DNA from: Candidatus Gastranaerophilales bacterium
Lineage (GTDB): Bacteria > Cyanobacteriota > Vampirovibrionia > Gastranaerophilales > Gastranaerophilaceae
Direction of reading: 5' to 3'
Length of the DNA stretch: 43,197 bases
Assembly: GCA_905236205.1 (NCBI GenBank)
Contig: CAJOPF010000027.1
Coordinates: 1 to 43,197, forward strand
Below are positions 3,945-26,171 of the stretch, in pieces. How positions within the stretch are numbered: the first letter of the stretch is position 1; each line of letters starts with the position of its first letter. The translations under genes and the position numbers were made by a program. Under the pieces are notes generated by a model that was given only the letters and a program-made list of their open reading frames with translations, made no database searches and was not told the DNA's origin.

Positions 3945-4043
3945 TTTTAAATCCTTTTCTATTTATATTTCCTATATCAAGAAAATAATAACATAAACAG
4001 GAATAAAGTTAAATGCTTATAACCAATAAGGTTTGGTTTTCTC

Positions 4044-6164
4044 TTAATTAAAATTAAAACCCATATGTCCTCTTAATTCTTCGGATTCCTTCAGCGATAC
4101 TGTTTCTTCCAACATTTTAGCTATCATATTTACATCTTTAACTTCTAAAATATCACATTCTCTTTTTATGCTCACAAAATCGCTTACAGTAAGTCCTTGC
4201 ATATTTAGGATTTCTGTATTTGGTTTCATATTAAATACATACTTAAAAGCAGTTTCTATTTTTTCGGGTTTTAAAAATCCAAATTTCATTTTAAAAGTAA
4301 AACGTCTTAAAGAAGCTTGGTCTAATGTATCTATATAATTTGTTGTACAAATAAAAGGATATTCAAAATCTTCCATACAAGTAAGCATTTGATTTACCAA
4401 TGTTACTTCCCAATTACGTTCGGCAAATCCTCTTGAACGCAAGAAAGAATCAACTTCGTCAATTATAAGCATAGCCTCTTTATCTTTTGCTTCTTCAAAT
4501 GCTTCGGCAACTAATTTTTCACTGTTACCGACGTATTTATCTAAAATATCTGATGCCGATTTGTGAATAACATTAAGTCCTAATTCATTAGCTAAATATA
4601 TTGCATAAGCAGATTTTCCGGTACCTGAATCACCATAAATACACATTGAAAAGTTTAATTTTTTATTTTTTACTATTTTTTCTGTTAAAAATTCTAAATC
4701 TCTTGAACAATTAACTAAATCAACTCTGTATTTTTTATTTTTCCCCTTTTTCGATAAATTTAATTCTGAAATAAATTTTGATGATTTACTTATTTTTGCT
4801 TGCTCAAAACATTGTTCAAAATTTTCAGATTGTTTTATTTTTTCTCTTTCGTAACAATATGCCATAATTTCTGCAACCTCCTGATATAAAGTTTTAGGTA
4901 TCATTTCTTTAATTTCTAAATCAAATAATTTTTTGGTTAATCTGTAATTTGTATATATAAAGGTATTGTTCTTTTTACCATTTTGTATAATTTTATCTGC
5001 ATCTTCTTTACTTTTTTTTGAAACGAAAGGTGCTGGTTTTTGCTTTCTACAGTATTTCAACTCAAGAGCCATTGAACAATCCTCATCTGTCAGGATAAAT
5101 GTTGTAACCTTATTTTTTTGCATTTCTTCCAAATTTGCTACAATATCTTTTGTTGTTAATATTCCATATTCATCGTTCAATTTGCATTGAATACCTTCTT
5201 TATATTTAATTTTTGATTTTATACGACCTTTTTTATCATAAGTAATAGAATAGCCATGCCTTAAATCTTTTTTAAATGTATGTTCTTCCATTAAATTTCC
5301 ATTTTGATAGTATAATCTATATTTTCCATCACGCTTGCCTTTTTTTAAATTTAGCTCAAATGCAATTTTTTTGTTTTCATAAAAGCCAATAAATAAGCCC
5401 TCTTGTTTATCATTTACATATTGTCCGATTTCTTTAATTAAACCATTTTCACGGTAAACAGTGAATTTGCCGTTTCTTACATTATTTACTACTTCTATTT
5501 CAAATCGCACATTACCATTTTCGAAATAATGTGTTTCTATTTCTTTTGTTTTAAAATATAGAGTTTTAATTTTTACTTTACCGTTTTTATAATAACTTGT
5601 ACCCCAACCGACAGGAACGTTATTTTTATATGTAATTTCATATTCTATTTCGCCAGTTTCATAATATCCACGCATAATACCTTCAAGTTTATTATTGACA
5701 AAATTTGTAGATTGCTCAATCTGTCCATTATAATAGTATTTTCGTGCATAACCATTTCTTAAGTTTCTCGCATAAGATATTTCTTCTTTTAGTTTGCCAT
5801 CCTCATAATAATATCTTTCAATGCCTTCTTTAACTCCATTGATAAAACTTTCTTCACTTTTTAAAGAACCATCTTCTCTAAAATTTTGACATATACCATC
5901 TAATTTGTTGTTTGTATAGTAGTTAATAGTACTAATATTGCCATTATTATTAAAATAAAGTTTGGTTATACCATTTAATTGTTTATTTACATAACTCATT
6001 TCTATTGATAATTTTTTATTTGGTAAATATACTCTAAAAATACCATCCTCAGGATATATTATATTGTCTTTTTTTATCAATTTGCCATCTTCATAATATA
6101 ATTTTGGTTCATCTACTAAAATCTCTCCAAAATTATAACAATTGTTAAAATCAAATTTTGACAT
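4044..6164 (-). CDS. Composite protein: MORN-variant (YwqK-like) repeats + FlhB C-terminal-like domain + AAA+ ATPase
   Basis: About residues 20-325: ~23-aa repeats of G-x-x-x-x-Y-Y-x-x-G-x-[IL]-[KE]. About 352-444: aligns to FlhB_C (MALELKYCRKQKPAPFV...IPKTLYQEVAEIMAYCYEREK). About 480-690: Walker A GDSGTGKS, Walker B LIIDEVDS, WEVTLVNQMLTCMEDF, CTTNYIDTLDQASLRRF. Confidence 0.85.
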   Translation of the reverse strand: MSKFDFNNCYNFGEILVDEPKLYYEDGKLIKKDNIIYPEDGIFRVYLPNKKLSIEMSYVNKQLNGITKLYFNNNGNISTINYYTNNKLDGICQNFREDGSLKSEESFINGVKEGIERYYYEDGKLKEEISYARNLRNGYARKYYYNGQIEQSTNFVNNKLEGIMRGYYETGEIEYEITYKNNVPVGWGTSYYKNGKVKIKTLYFKTKEIETHYFENGNVRFEIEVVNNVRNGKFTVYRENGLIKEIGQYVNDKQEGLFIGFYENKKIAFELNLKKGKRDGKYRLYYQNGNLMEEHTFKKDLRHGYSITYDKKGRIKSKIKYKEGIQCKLNDEYGILTTKDIVANLEEMQKNKVTTFILTDEDCSMALELKYCRKQKPAPFVSKKSKEDADKIIQNGKKNNTFIYTNYRLTKKLFDLEIKEMIPKTLYQEVAEIMAYCYEREKIKQSENFEQCFEQAKISKSSKFISELNLSKKGKNKKYRVDLVNCSRDLEFLTEKIVKNKKLNFSMCIYGDSGTGKSAYAIYLANELGLNVIHKSASDILDKYVGNSEKLVAEAFEEAKDKEAMLIIDEVDSFLRSRGFAERNWEVTLVNQMLTCMEDFEYPFICTTNYIDTLDQASLRRFTFKMKFGFLKPEKIETAFKYVFNMKPNTEILNMQGLTVSDFVSIKRECDILEVKDVNMIAKMLEETVSLKESEELRGHMGFNFN

Positions 6165-6191
6165 AATTATCTCCTTGCTATTTGCTGAATT

Positions 6192-6407
6192 TTATTCTTT
6201 ACATTTACCTAACTTTGCATCTAATATAGCTTTTATATCGTTATCAAATTTTTCTGAATAAGGATAATGTTTTTCAAACTTTTCATCTAAATAATCATCG
6301 TCATAAACCTTTAAATATAATGCTTTTTGTTCTTCTTCTGTTCTTGGTGTGTCCAAAAATTTTGATTCACACTTGTTTTCTTGAGTTTTATCTTTGTTCT
6401 CAGGCAT
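6192..6407 (-). CDS. Small acidic hypothetical protein (71 aa)
   Basis: ORF with AAAGAGG-type RBS upstream of ATG; 27-nt gap to the downstream composite gene, co-directional. Confidence 0.6.
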   Translation of the reverse strand: MPENKDKTQENKCESKFLDTPRTEEEQKALYLKVYDDDYLDEKFEKHYPYSEKFDNDIKAILDAKLGKCKE

Positions 6408-6433
6408 ATTTACCTCTTTTTTTGATTACAATT

Positions 6434-7069
6434 TTATTCAATAAATGTTAAAGTAGTTGCTTCCTCTAAATGAGCATAAAATCTAGTACCTGCTGGGATT
6501 TTTACACTATTTCCTTTCTCAGCTGCGTATGCAAGACCTGTGGAACCTGACATTAAAGCAAAATATCCAATAGCAACAGGAGTTGTTAAACCTGCACTCA
6601 TAATAGTCATACCAACAATAGCAGCACCAACAATGCAGCCGCATATAAATTTAGCAATAATTTTTCCACCTCGTTTTGCATTAGAGGTTATTTTTATAGG
6701 TTTTGTTTTAATATTAATTTTTCCTGTAGGTGTTACCAATTCATTAAATTCTACTGTAAAACTTCCAGATTTTTGGTATTTATCAGGCTTTTCAATATCA
6801 ATAATTTTGCCATATAAAATACTTCCTTTGGGAGCAATCAAAGCATCATTTTCTTTCCAATTTTTATTTATCACAGCAGATATTACATCACCATTAGTAA
6901 GTAATTCCAAATCTAGAGAAGATTGCATTACTGCTTCAAAACTAGAATTTTCAGGTAAATAAACAACGTGTCCTTTTAAACTATCTGATGCCCATACAAT
7001 TTGGTTCATTTGAAAAAATAATACAACTGCAATTGCAATAATTTTTTTTATTGAAAAATTTTTAATCAT
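6434..7069 (-). CDS. Hypothetical exported protein with Gly/Ala-rich hydrophobic segment
   Basis: N-terminal signal-like MIKNFSIKKIIAIAVVLFFQMNQIVWA; hydrophobic stretch FICGCIVGAAIVGMTIMSAGLTTPVAIGYFALM. Confidence 0.7.
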   Translation of the reverse strand: MIKNFSIKKIIAIAVVLFFQMNQIVWASDSLKGHVVYLPENSSFEAVMQSSLDLELLTNGDVISAVINKNWKENDALIAPKGSILYGKIIDIEKPDKYQKSGSFTVEFNELVTPTGKINIKTKPIKITSNAKRGGKIIAKFICGCIVGAAIVGMTIMSAGLTTPVAIGYFALMSGSTGLAYAAEKGNSVKIPAGTRFYAHLEEATTLTFIE

Positions 7070-7081
7070 ACGAATATCCCT

Positions 7082-7810
7082 TTATTTGAACATAAATTTT
7101 AAGTCATCTTCGTAATCATATGTTACGTAACCAACAGCAAGTTTTGTTTTATAGTCAGATGTTTTAAAGTAGACATTAAAATGACCAAATATACCGGTTT
7201 CTTCACAATTTGCATTTCTTTTTAAATCTTTTAAATCAATATATAAAATGTTATTCAGGTTATAATCTTTTTGTTTTTGATTAACAAGCAAAGTTCCTTG
7301 TTTATCCATTTGAACCATACGGATATTCGCCTTTTGTATTTCTTGTGGTGTAACTTTTAAATCTTTATTTGTATCGAGCGATATAAGAGATTTAAAACGA
7401 TTAGTTTTTGAATCATAAATACCAAATAAATCATTATGAGTCCAATTTTTAGAAGGTTTATCTATAACTAATACATAATAATTTCCATCAATTGGAATTA
7501 CGTATGGATCATTAACATTAACAGGAATTTGTCGTTTTGGTTGTGGTGGAGGTGGCGGAGCTATTTGAGCAACATATGCACTAGTTCCATTTGTTGTTGA
7601 AAATTTGGTTTTTTGGTTTTCATTTTGAATTTCTTTAGAGTTAAAATTTTTTACTTCTGGCAAATAAAGTGTATCAACATTTGATTTTTGAATTTGTTTT
7701 GTATTAGTATTTATTTTTGTTGTTTTATACAGGAACATATCCTCTTCTTGCGCATAAGAAGGTATTACTAATACCAATAATAATGTCATTAAAGTGAAAA
7801 TTTTTTTCAT
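7082..7810 (-). CDS. Hypothetical exported protein with a proline run and an EF-hand-like loop
   Basis: Signal peptide MKKIFTLMTLLLVLVIPSYA; APPPPPQP; DTNKDLKVTPQE matches DxNxDxx[hydrophobic]xxxE. Confidence 0.7.
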   Translation of the reverse strand: MKKIFTLMTLLLVLVIPSYAQEEDMFLYKTTKINTNTKQIQKSNVDTLYLPEVKNFNSKEIQNENQKTKFSTTNGTSAYVAQIAPPPPPQPKRQIPVNVNDPYVIPIDGNYYVLVIDKPSKNWTHNDLFGIYDSKTNRFKSLISLDTNKDLKVTPQEIQKANIRMVQMDKQGTLLVNQKQKDYNLNNILYIDLKDLKRNANCEETGIFGHFNVYFKTSDYKTKLAVGYVTYDYEDDLKFMFK

Positions 7811-8023
7811 AAAGTACCTCCTTGTCTGTTTAAATAACGATTAATAAGCATTTTTGTTCATTTTTATTATAATTTTGTTACTTATTAATCATAAAATATA
7901 GGTACGTCAAAAACGGACATAACTTTTTGTGTAATATTTATGTAATTTTATAGCGATTTATTTTTTTTAATAATCTGGCTAAAAGTTAATTATAATAAGA
8001 ATGTACAAAATTCTTTTTACATC

Positions 8024-8052
8024 TTGAAAAATTTTATAAAATACGTTACAAT
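8024..8052 (+). promoter_or_regulatory. Sigma70-like promoter upstream of tandem hairpins
   Basis: TTGAAA (8024-8029), 17-nt spacer, TACAAT (8047-8052). Confidence 0.5.
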
Positions 8053-8093
8053 GTGTTTATAAGATGCATTTAATTTTGTAAATATTATACTCG

Positions 8094-8138
8094 CTATAGA
8101 TTTATTCTATAGTTCAGATGACAGGCTTTATGCCTGTC
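8094..8138 (+). repeat. Two adjacent inverted repeats (structured leader or sRNA-like)
   Basis: CTATAGA-TTTAT-TCTATAG (8094-8112) and GACAGGC-TTTAT-GCCTGTC (8120-8138), both perfect with the same TTTAT loop. Confidence 0.6.
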
Positions 8139-8140
8139 GT

Positions 8141-8169
8141 TTGCGTTTTATAAAATGTATGTGTATAAT
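8141..8169 (+). promoter_or_regulatory. Sigma70-like promoter with predicted start at or next to the NYN-gene ATG
   Basis: TTGCGT (8141-8146), 17-nt spacer, TATAAT (8164-8169); 6 nt to ATG at 8176. Confidence 0.55.
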
Positions 8170-8175
8170 TAGATT

Positions 8176-8816
8176 ATGAAAATTTTAGCACTAATAGATG
8201 GTTTTAATTATTACCATAAATTAGATAAATACCAAAATAACAAAATACTTGCGTTAAATGGCTAGATTATATGTCATTATTAAAGGCATCTGTAAAAAGC
8301 CATTTGAGAAATGATAATTTCGATTTAGAAATTTACTTTTTTACCGCTATTGCAAAGCATAGAAATATAGATTCACAAAATAGACATAAGACATACATAA
8401 ACGCTTTAAAAAAGTCTGGTGTAAAACTTGTATTAGGTGAATTTAAAGAAAAATATATTGCACCTTGCATTGATTGCAAGCAAAAATTACCTTCTGAAAA
8501 AATTTTAAAACACGAAGAAAAACATACAGATGTGAATATAGCAATAACATTACTAGAAAAAGCAATGACTAATAATTTTGATAGAGCATATTTATTAAGT
8601 GGTGATAGTGATTATGTGCCTGTTGTAAAACGTGTAAAGGAACTTTATCCACAAAAAGAAATCATAATTTGTCCACCGCCACAAAAGAATTATTGTGTTC
8701 ATAGTTTAGTACAAGCAAGTGGCGAAAATGACTTTTTTAGATTTAGATGGAATACAATAAAACATTTTCAATTTCCTAATGAATATGAAGATTATAAAAA
8801 TCCTTGGTTATTGTAG
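8176..8816 (+). pseudogene. NYN (PIN-like, LabA/DUF88-type) domain protein interrupted by a -1 frame change
   Basis: Frame 1 from ATG 8176: MKILALIDGFNYYHKLDKYQNNKILALNG* (stop 8263-8265). The -1 frame continues WLDYMSLLKASVKSHLRNDNFDLEIYFFTAIAK...DVNIAITLLEKAMTNNFDRAYLLSGDSDYVPVVKRV. The two parts together form one NYN domain. Confidence 0.75.
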
Positions 8817-8885
8817 AATTTAACTATCAATCTACTCTTTACATGCCAGCATATTTTTTGTACGATTAAGAAAAAAGAGGAAGAT

Positions 8886-25091: not shown

Positions 25092-26171
25092 TTATATTCT
25101 TTTATTTCTATTGTATACGTATGCAAGAATTTCTGCAACTGCTTGAAACATTTCTGATGGTATTATATCACCAATTTCAACTAAATTGTAGAGGGTTCTT
25201 GCAACAAGTCTGTTTTCTACTATCGGAACGTTGTTATTTTGAGCAACTTCTCTTATCTTAAACGCAATAAAATCAACCCCTTTCGCCACAACATAAGGAG
25301 CATGTTTTACTGTTTTATCGTATTTTAATGCAACAGCATAATGTGTCGGATTTGTTACAACTACATCCGCAGTCGGAACAGCCGACATCATTTTTTGCTG
25401 CATAAGCTGATATCCCATTGAACGGATTTTACTCTTAATTTTTGGATCACCCTCAGTATCCTTCATTTCATCTTTTACTTCTTGTTTTGTCATTTTTATG
25501 GATTTTTCAAACATATAAGTTTGGAATTTCAAATCCAAAAAGCCTATAATAAGCATAGCCAAACACATATTTAAAAACATTTGCGCAAGAATAGAGCCTA
25601 AAACGTGGAAAACAATATTCGGATCCGCCCCCAACAACGCGTAAAGCTCATCTAATCTTGCATGAACAACAGAATATCCGCAGGCACCTACAATAATAAC
25701 TTTTAACAAAGATTTTGCCAATTCCATTAGTTTATTCGGTTCAAAAGGATTTAATAAACGCTTAATTCCGTCAACCCACTTTTTTGGAGAAACGTTACTG
25801 AATTTTGGTTTTATTTTTTCAATTGCAAACATATGACCTATTTGCAATCTTAAAGAAAGAATTGTTAAAATAAACACAGAACAAAGAAAAGGTAAAAGAG
25901 CCTGCGCAGAAAGTTTAACGTATGGCGCAAATATTCCCATAACTTCAGAAGTATCATAACTTTTCGGATTCAAATTGGTAAAAGCAAAATGCAAAGCAAC
26001 CAACATTCTGTTCATCATCCAGCCTGACAGCGCAAATAACATAACAATACCTATTGTTATTGTTACGGCAGACATTAAGTCTTTGCTTTTCGCTATATTA
26101 CCTTTATCCCTCTCCTTATTTCGTTTTCGGGGAGTCGCGGGTTCGGTTCTTTCTGCTCCGTCACTTGCCAT
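25092..26171 (-). CDS. flhB: Flagellar export-gate protein FlhB
   Basis: GAERTEPATPRKRNKERDKGNIAKSKDL; VVVTNPTHYAVALKYD with intact NPTH autocleavage site. Confidence 0.96.
   Translation of the reverse strand: MASDGAERTEPATPRKRNKERDKGNIAKSKDLMSAVTITIGIVMLFALSGWMMNRMLVALHFAFTNLNPKSYDTSEVMGIFAPYVKLSAQALLPFLCSVFILTILSLRLQIGHMFAIEKIKPKFSNVSPKKWVDGIKRLLNPFEPNKLMELAKSLLKVIIVGACGYSVVHARLDELYALLGADPNIVFHVLGSILAQMFLNMCLAMLIIGFLDLKFQTYMFEKSIKMTKQEVKDEMKDTEGDPKIKSKIRSMGYQLMQQKMMSAVPTADVVVTNPTHYAVALKYDKTVKHAPYVVAKGVDFIAFKIREVAQNNNVPIVENRLVARTLYNLVEIGDIIPSEMFQAVAEILAYVYNRNKRI

Follow-up and report, generated by a model that had tools for sequence, protein, structure and literature searches.

A single intact gene that joins MORN_2 repeats, an FlhB_C-type domain and an AAA+ module lies on a small, foreign-looking DNA insert of a gut bacterium, and the best explanation of its product is an accessory-genome protein with a borrowed recognition unit. 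In the window, i.e., the whole stretch of 43,197 nucleotides that we analyzed, the gene is read on the minus strand from 6164 to 4044 as an open reading frame of 706 amino acids, termed P0001 here.

4044..6164, minus strand: MORN_2 / FlhB_C / AAA+ composite protein P0001 (ORF, translation, Pfam, NCBIfam)
6171..6176, minus strand: likely ribosome-binding site AAGGAG preceding the ATG of P0001 (direct sequence reading)

At the local base composition a run of 706 stop-free codons has a chance probability of about 2e-33. Pfam finds MORN_2 with 108.3 bits (cut-off 29.6 bits), Bac_export_2 with 41.5 bits (cut-off 24.4 bits) and AAA with 95.9 bits; both the coordinates and the three-domain architecture proposed in the initial annotation are correct. 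The literature that we searched holds no paper mentioning FlhB together with MORN, in line with the view expressed there that no described protein joins the three parts. The source genome is of draft quality, with 163 contigs, 88.6% completeness and 4.9% contamination. An assembly artefact, which the initial annotation had also considered, is unlikely as the origin of the gene, because the reading frame is intact, because both flanks align at 82-87% to congeners and because the genome contains no near-identical source pieces, neither for the FlhB_C part (31-37% identity to FlhB) nor for the AAA part (48-53%).

The cytoplasmic domain of FlhB is normally a part of the export gate, where it docks early substrates and switches the export specificity. 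In P0001 the corresponding region lies in the middle of the protein.

4827..5147, minus strand: FlhB_C-like domain, aa 340-446 (Pfam 41.5 bits, lineage profile 48.6 bits, EscU-C-like predicted fold)
5073..5084, minus strand: position of the NPTH autocleavage motif, reading EDCS, aa 361-364 (gap-free alignment with 17 FlhB rows)

The Bac_export_2 profile (PF01312) matches aa 365-436 with its positions 261-334 of 335 (E 1.3e-10), a full-length FlhB profile matches with its last 85 positions only, and the NCBIfam model flhB_rel also matches (E 4e-10), under its own cut-off. A profile made only from the lineage, namely from the C-terminal parts of 17 FlhB proteins, scores 48.6 bits, compared with a maximum of 5.3 bits in 2,000 shuffles of residues 331-450. 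The resemblance to FlhB is far above chance. The 12 of 21 identities that had been counted by eye are right, and the alignment with the 17 FlhB rows is free of gaps through the NPTH position. A fold model computed from the single sequence, without FlhB rows, has a pLDDT of 48 and the order H-E-E-E-H-E-H-H; its top match among 350,542 PDB chains is the C-terminal domain of EscU (E 0.04), with Shewanella FlhB at rank 10. The alignment-based model reaches a pLDDT of 80-94 over residues of about 351-440 and matches EscU-C with a probability of 1.00 and a target-normalised TM of 0.72-0.82; it was built with the 17 FlhB rows and is therefore not independent evidence for the fold. Whether or not FlhB rows are used, EscU-C ranks among the best PDB matches of the predicted fold; the profile search and the fold prediction by which the initial annotation could have been refuted both came out in its favour. 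In the model of the whole protein, confidence is low for the MORN and AAA parts.

Genome-wide, PF01312 is matched in three places, which are two complete FlhBs (C27 and C75) and the P0001 frame.

25092-26171 of the window and L207:11829-12890: FlhB paralogues of the own genome

The second of these paralogues lies near ATP synthase genes and has NPIH for NPTH, as in several relatives. Recent copying of the P0001 domain from a host FlhB was rejected in view of the 31-37% identity. In the FlhB_C phylogeny the domain sits on a very long branch, with a placement that is not trustworthy, and its local scores are slightly highest against the FlhB of congeners.

Which residues of FlhB have been kept bears on what the domain could still do. 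Since NPTH has become EDCS in the alignment, the autocleavage chemistry of FlhB is not expected here. The N-terminal membrane domain of FlhB/SctU export-switch proteins is absent as well, and we conclude from both changes that P0001 is not an FlhB and not a switch protein, so that the role of specificity switch which had been named for this domain does not carry over. The AKG loop is altered, and 19 of the 43 columns conserved in FlhB are kept; in the predicted fold the helix ahead of the cleavage site and the fold itself are retained. In Salmonella a hydrophobic pocket of FlhB, formed by A286, P287, A341 and L344 (PMC9307174), docks early rod and hook substrates (PMC8983047). According to the alignment these four positions correspond to A378, P379, A431 and M434 of P0001. 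With only 19 of 43 conserved columns kept, the retention of the pocket is not statistically special, and as the four positions are conserved in FlhB anyway, it is suggestive of retained docking and supports it without proving it.

A soluble FlhB_C has a reported precedent in Helicobacter, and one could imagine that P0001, like FlhX/HP1575, is a spare for the export switch or regulates it, the FlhB_C domain binding the export gate and the AAA module only regulating. Wand et al. 2006 are said to have found that HP1575 is a soluble FlhB_C homologue which supports export after deletion of the FlhB_CC domain, and the kept fold and the kept helix before the cleavage site would suit such a role. P0001 has, however, about 600 extra residues, EDCS at the NPTH-equivalent position and a changed AKG loop, its gene has no linkage to export genes, and congeners which likewise possess two FlhBs do not have it; we regard this explanation as quite improbable.

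The N-terminal part of the protein consists of repeats.

5190..6113, minus strand: MORN_2-type repeat array, aa ~18-325 (Pfam 108.3 bits; collinear match to transposon MORN_2 proteins)

About ten MORN-like units are visible, slightly fewer than the dozen first noted, and MORN_2 is matched nowhere else in the own genome. Five genomes, from five genera of the same family, encode a MORN_2 protein of about 490 aa that is collinear with aa 10-220 of P0001 at 36-37% identity. It is cargo of a transposon-like element with a Mu-type transposase and a TniB-like ATPase (L202-L206), and its gene adjoins those of an RlaP protein and a WYL regulator; on some copies of the element there are MmeI-type restriction-modification and AbiEii as well. 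As this collinear relative sits on a transposon-like element, the MORN array of P0001 is, judged by sequence, common to mobile cargo. The MORN operon of this Mu/Tn7-like element in five genera may in its own right be an undescribed defence module.

The C-terminal part is an AAA+ module (Pfam AAA, PF00004, aa 507-629).

4047..4826, minus strand: aa 447-706, homologue of the second module in tandem-AAA proteins (48-53% identity; 88 loci)
4611..4634, minus strand: Walker A GDSGTGKS, aa 511-518 (motif reading)
4446..4469, minus strand: Walker B LIIDEVDS, aa 566-573 (motif reading)
4518..4541, minus strand: pore-loop-1 KYVG within DKYVGNSE, aa 542-549 (motif; conserved in the tandem-AAA family)
4299..4313, minus strand: SLRRF candidate arginine-finger segment, aa 618-622 (motif; invariant in the first family alignment)

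Walker A, Walker B and SLRRF are intact, as had been read before, and together with a sensor-1-like segment (CTTN, aa 606-609) providing the Asn and the aromatic pore loop they make up the features of an AAA+ protein at the level of motifs. A hexameric ring and ATP hydrolysis, which belong to this class of ATPase, are putative for P0001. In relatives, proteins of about 650-700 aa have a C-terminal AAA module that is 48-53% identical to residues 447-706, and the identity to tandem-AAA proteins in other phyla is roughly 38-48%. Two alignment-based scans yielded 88 loci of this family in Gastranaerophilales, Alpha-, Beta- and Gammaproteobacteria, Planctomycetes and others. With few exceptions these loci encode double-AAA proteins of about 610-740 aa, with two modules per chain where P0001 has one, and none has an ORF matching MORN or FlhB_C; one member (L112) lost its first module by deletion. 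By this comparison the AAA part of P0001 is one module of a known and widespread tandem-AAA family and not as a new kind of ATPase. Of the earlier proposal of a new export-associated or remodelling ATPase the remodelling motifs thus stand, the novelty of the ATPase does not, and the link to export is one that we infer.

The best PADLOC model for the tandem-AAA family is IetA, and members occur also in IMG/VR and phage records. A subtilisin-like IetS partner was not seen by motif search in the ORFs of 89 related loci and Pfam reports no protease domain in the proteins of the insert, so that the IetAS pairing was not found by these searches. Near the tandem-AAA gene, 35 of the 89 loci encode a regulator that belongs to one homologous group; we call this group WYL-type because the similar regulator on the transposon with the MORN_2 protein has WYL and WCX domains. 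The two genes are often adjacent, among Gastranaerophilales as well as in at least one gammaproteobacterium (L100-L133, L146), and the pair is a candidate conserved two-gene module. In five loci (L101:6691-7365 and four others) the neighbourhood of the tandem-AAA gene encodes a small protein whose glycine-rich motif resembles that of FtsZ/tubulin.

The gene is located on an AT-rich insert which carries four further reading frames.

4020..8820 (boundaries approximate), no strand: AT-rich insert of ~4.8 kb (synteny, composition)
6192..6407, minus strand: 71-aa ORF immediately upstream of P0001 (ORF; no PHROGs match)
6434..7069, minus strand: 211-aa protein with a signal-peptide-like start, by eye (no significant Pfam/NCBIfam match)
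7082..7810, minus strand: 242-aa protein with a signal-peptide-like start, by eye (no match in six congeners)
8271..8816, plus strand: NYN-domain protein, PADLOC HEC-09-like (Pfam 42.2 bits; PADLOC 106 bits)

The insert has 25-29% G+C compared with 33-38% outside, and it is absent from the congeners G087, G147 and G060, where the flanking genes are adjacent and both flanks align at 82-87%. No clear transposition signature was found at the insert edges: repeats and tRNAs are unremarkable, and the search gave neither a clear flanking repeat nor a tRNA, nor an integrase in the insert. RNA families were not detected in the region, nor was a WYL regulator found in the insert. The two signal-peptide-like proteins without clear family (window 6434-7810) are encoded directly upstream of the composite gene.

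Such a setting could also produce a composite without selected function, either by chance from decaying accessory genes or as an assembly chimera. P0001 is unique in the roughly 1,000 genomes searched and sits in AT-rich inserted DNA, and the AAA family is structurally labile, as is seen from the deletion in L112. The intact frame of 706 codons with a ribosome-binding-like site speaks against this origin; the FlhB_C domain has diverged (~30% identity) and has yet kept its core and fold, hence it is no simple recent copy, and near-identical source pieces are absent from the genome while the flanks match congeners. We consider an origin of this kind improbable.

The main rival to our own reading is a defence protein, since the relatives of both other parts keep mobile or defence-like company. 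The FlhB_C domain would here be a bait that mimics a host part attacked by a phage or competitor, the MORN repeats would act as a scaffold for sensing, and engagement would activate the AAA module. This would fit the HEC-09-like NYN protein in the same small insert, the IetA match of the tandem-AAA family with its members in IMG/VR and phage records and its frequent WYL-type neighbour, and the transposon cargo related to the MORN array, which is accompanied by a WYL regulator and RlaP and on some copies also by MmeI-type restriction-modification and AbiEii. P0001 lacks a known effector domain, however, the IetS partner was not seen in the 89 loci searched by motif, the insert has no WYL regulator that we could find, and the IetA scores may be generic to AAA proteins. 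We know of no phage factor targeting FlhB. On balance we think a defence role rather unlikely.

No second copy of the whole fusion turned up in the family (383 genomes), the genus (all 7), the order (383) or the phylum (292), overlapping samples which comprise about 1,000 genomes, nor in whole-protein pattern scans of genome contigs and IMG/VR or in tblastn searches of phages and plasmids; the search for the same architecture in relatives that had been suggested thus came back empty. Two phage matches (H31, H32) were rejected as relatives of the fusion: both are full-length FlhB genes of the ordinary kind, and the fecal contigs that carry them are unverified. The congener G025 has three PF01312 matches, as have G036, G391, G402 and G403, and the piecewise reading of G025 (1.85 of ~2.0 Mb) revealed a second soluble FlhB_C protein.

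L288:10793-11812 (G025:C10:30793-31812), plus strand: TPR-FlhB_C soluble protein of 339 aa in congener G025 (piecewise reading of the genome)

This protein scores 23.7 bits with Pfam, just under the cut-off of 24.4, and 27.3 bits with the lineage profile (E 1.5e-6). NPTH and the membrane part are absent, FlhB_C is C-terminal, and at two of the four pocket positions other residues (L, Y) are found. Its gene directly follows genes which by eye resemble those of GDP-sugar synthesis. As two soluble repeat proteins of different build within one genus carry a cleavage-dead FlhB_C, the domain is reusable as a module outside the gate.

Our preferred reading, which we hold tentatively and at somewhat less than an even chance, is that P0001 is a cytosolic AAA+ remodeller which uses its cleavage-dead FlhB_C to dock export substrates or parts of the gate, the client being what we infer. 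Because the early-substrate pocket of FlhB is kept, the FlhB_C domain with its predicted FlhB-cytoplasmic-domain fold could dock early rod and hook substrates or partners of the export gate; the MORN array would serve as scaffold or second binding surface, and the AAA ring would pull on or dissociate the bound client via its pore loop. Flagellar-type export components would in this way be remodelled, sequestered or cleared, and in terms of FlhB the protein would be a permanently uncleaved gate decoy coupled to a motor. The link to export is reasonable, if not a result, because the docking pocket is kept, the host has flagellins (five flagellin-type matches) and two FlhBs, and a congener has the soluble TPR-FlhB_C protein. 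Several observations count against the remodeller: the complete fusion is a singleton and hence has no support from conservation or co-occurrence, the gene lies about 17-19 kb from the export genes, on an insert apart from them, no more than 19 of the 43 columns conserved in FlhB are retained, the TPR relative departs from the pocket at two of its four positions, and the closest AAA and MORN relatives are found in mobile or defence-like settings and not in flagellar operons. If the domain binds export cargo, an AAA+ motor would act on flagellar substrates ahead of the gate, a control layer absent from the literature searched; if it is a bait instead, this would suggest that something attacks FlhB. 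Going further, soluble cleavage-dead FlhB_C domains on repeat scaffolds (MORN-AAA here, TPR in the congener) might belong to a class of cytosolic receptors, as yet undescribed, that bind type III export substrates, the receptor being coupled here to an AAA+ motor which would unfold, clear or withhold cargo of flagellar export; we regard this generalization as rather unlikely.

Each part of P0001 has known counterparts from which the whole differs. The cytoplasmic domain of FlhB/SctU (C-terminal part of PF01312; EscU-C 3BZR/3C03, FlhB-C 6Z0W, 3B0Z) is similar in profile, predicted order of secondary structure and fold, whereas P0001 has no membrane part, has lost NPTH, has a changed AKG loop and carries the domain between MORN repeats and an AAA module. 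Stand-alone FlhB_C proteins of the FlhX/HP1575 type, likened here by description only, are soluble carriers of FlhB_C as well; they are small and consist of FlhB_C only, whereas P0001 with its 706 aa has two further domains including a motor. The TPR-FlhB_C protein of G025 is likewise a soluble repeat protein with a cleavage-dead FlhB_C, but has TPR instead of MORN, no AAA module and a weaker, C-terminal FlhB_C. The transposon MORN_2 protein shares the collinear array, but lacks FlhB_C and AAA and has a different N-terminal stretch of about 130 aa. In tandem-AAA proteins of about 650-740 aa (PHROG 10401 'ATPase'; IetA-like in PADLOC) a further AAA module takes the place of MORN and FlhB_C, i.e., the first AAA module and the N-terminal part are swapped in P0001 for these two domains. 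The best PDB matches of the AAA family are remodellers of the VCP/Cdc48 type (5VC7, 5G4G), which have the Walker motifs, the sensor-1-like segment and the KYVG pore loop in common with P0001; in contrast to these, P0001 has one AAA module, and its recognition parts are unrelated to the VCP N-domain.
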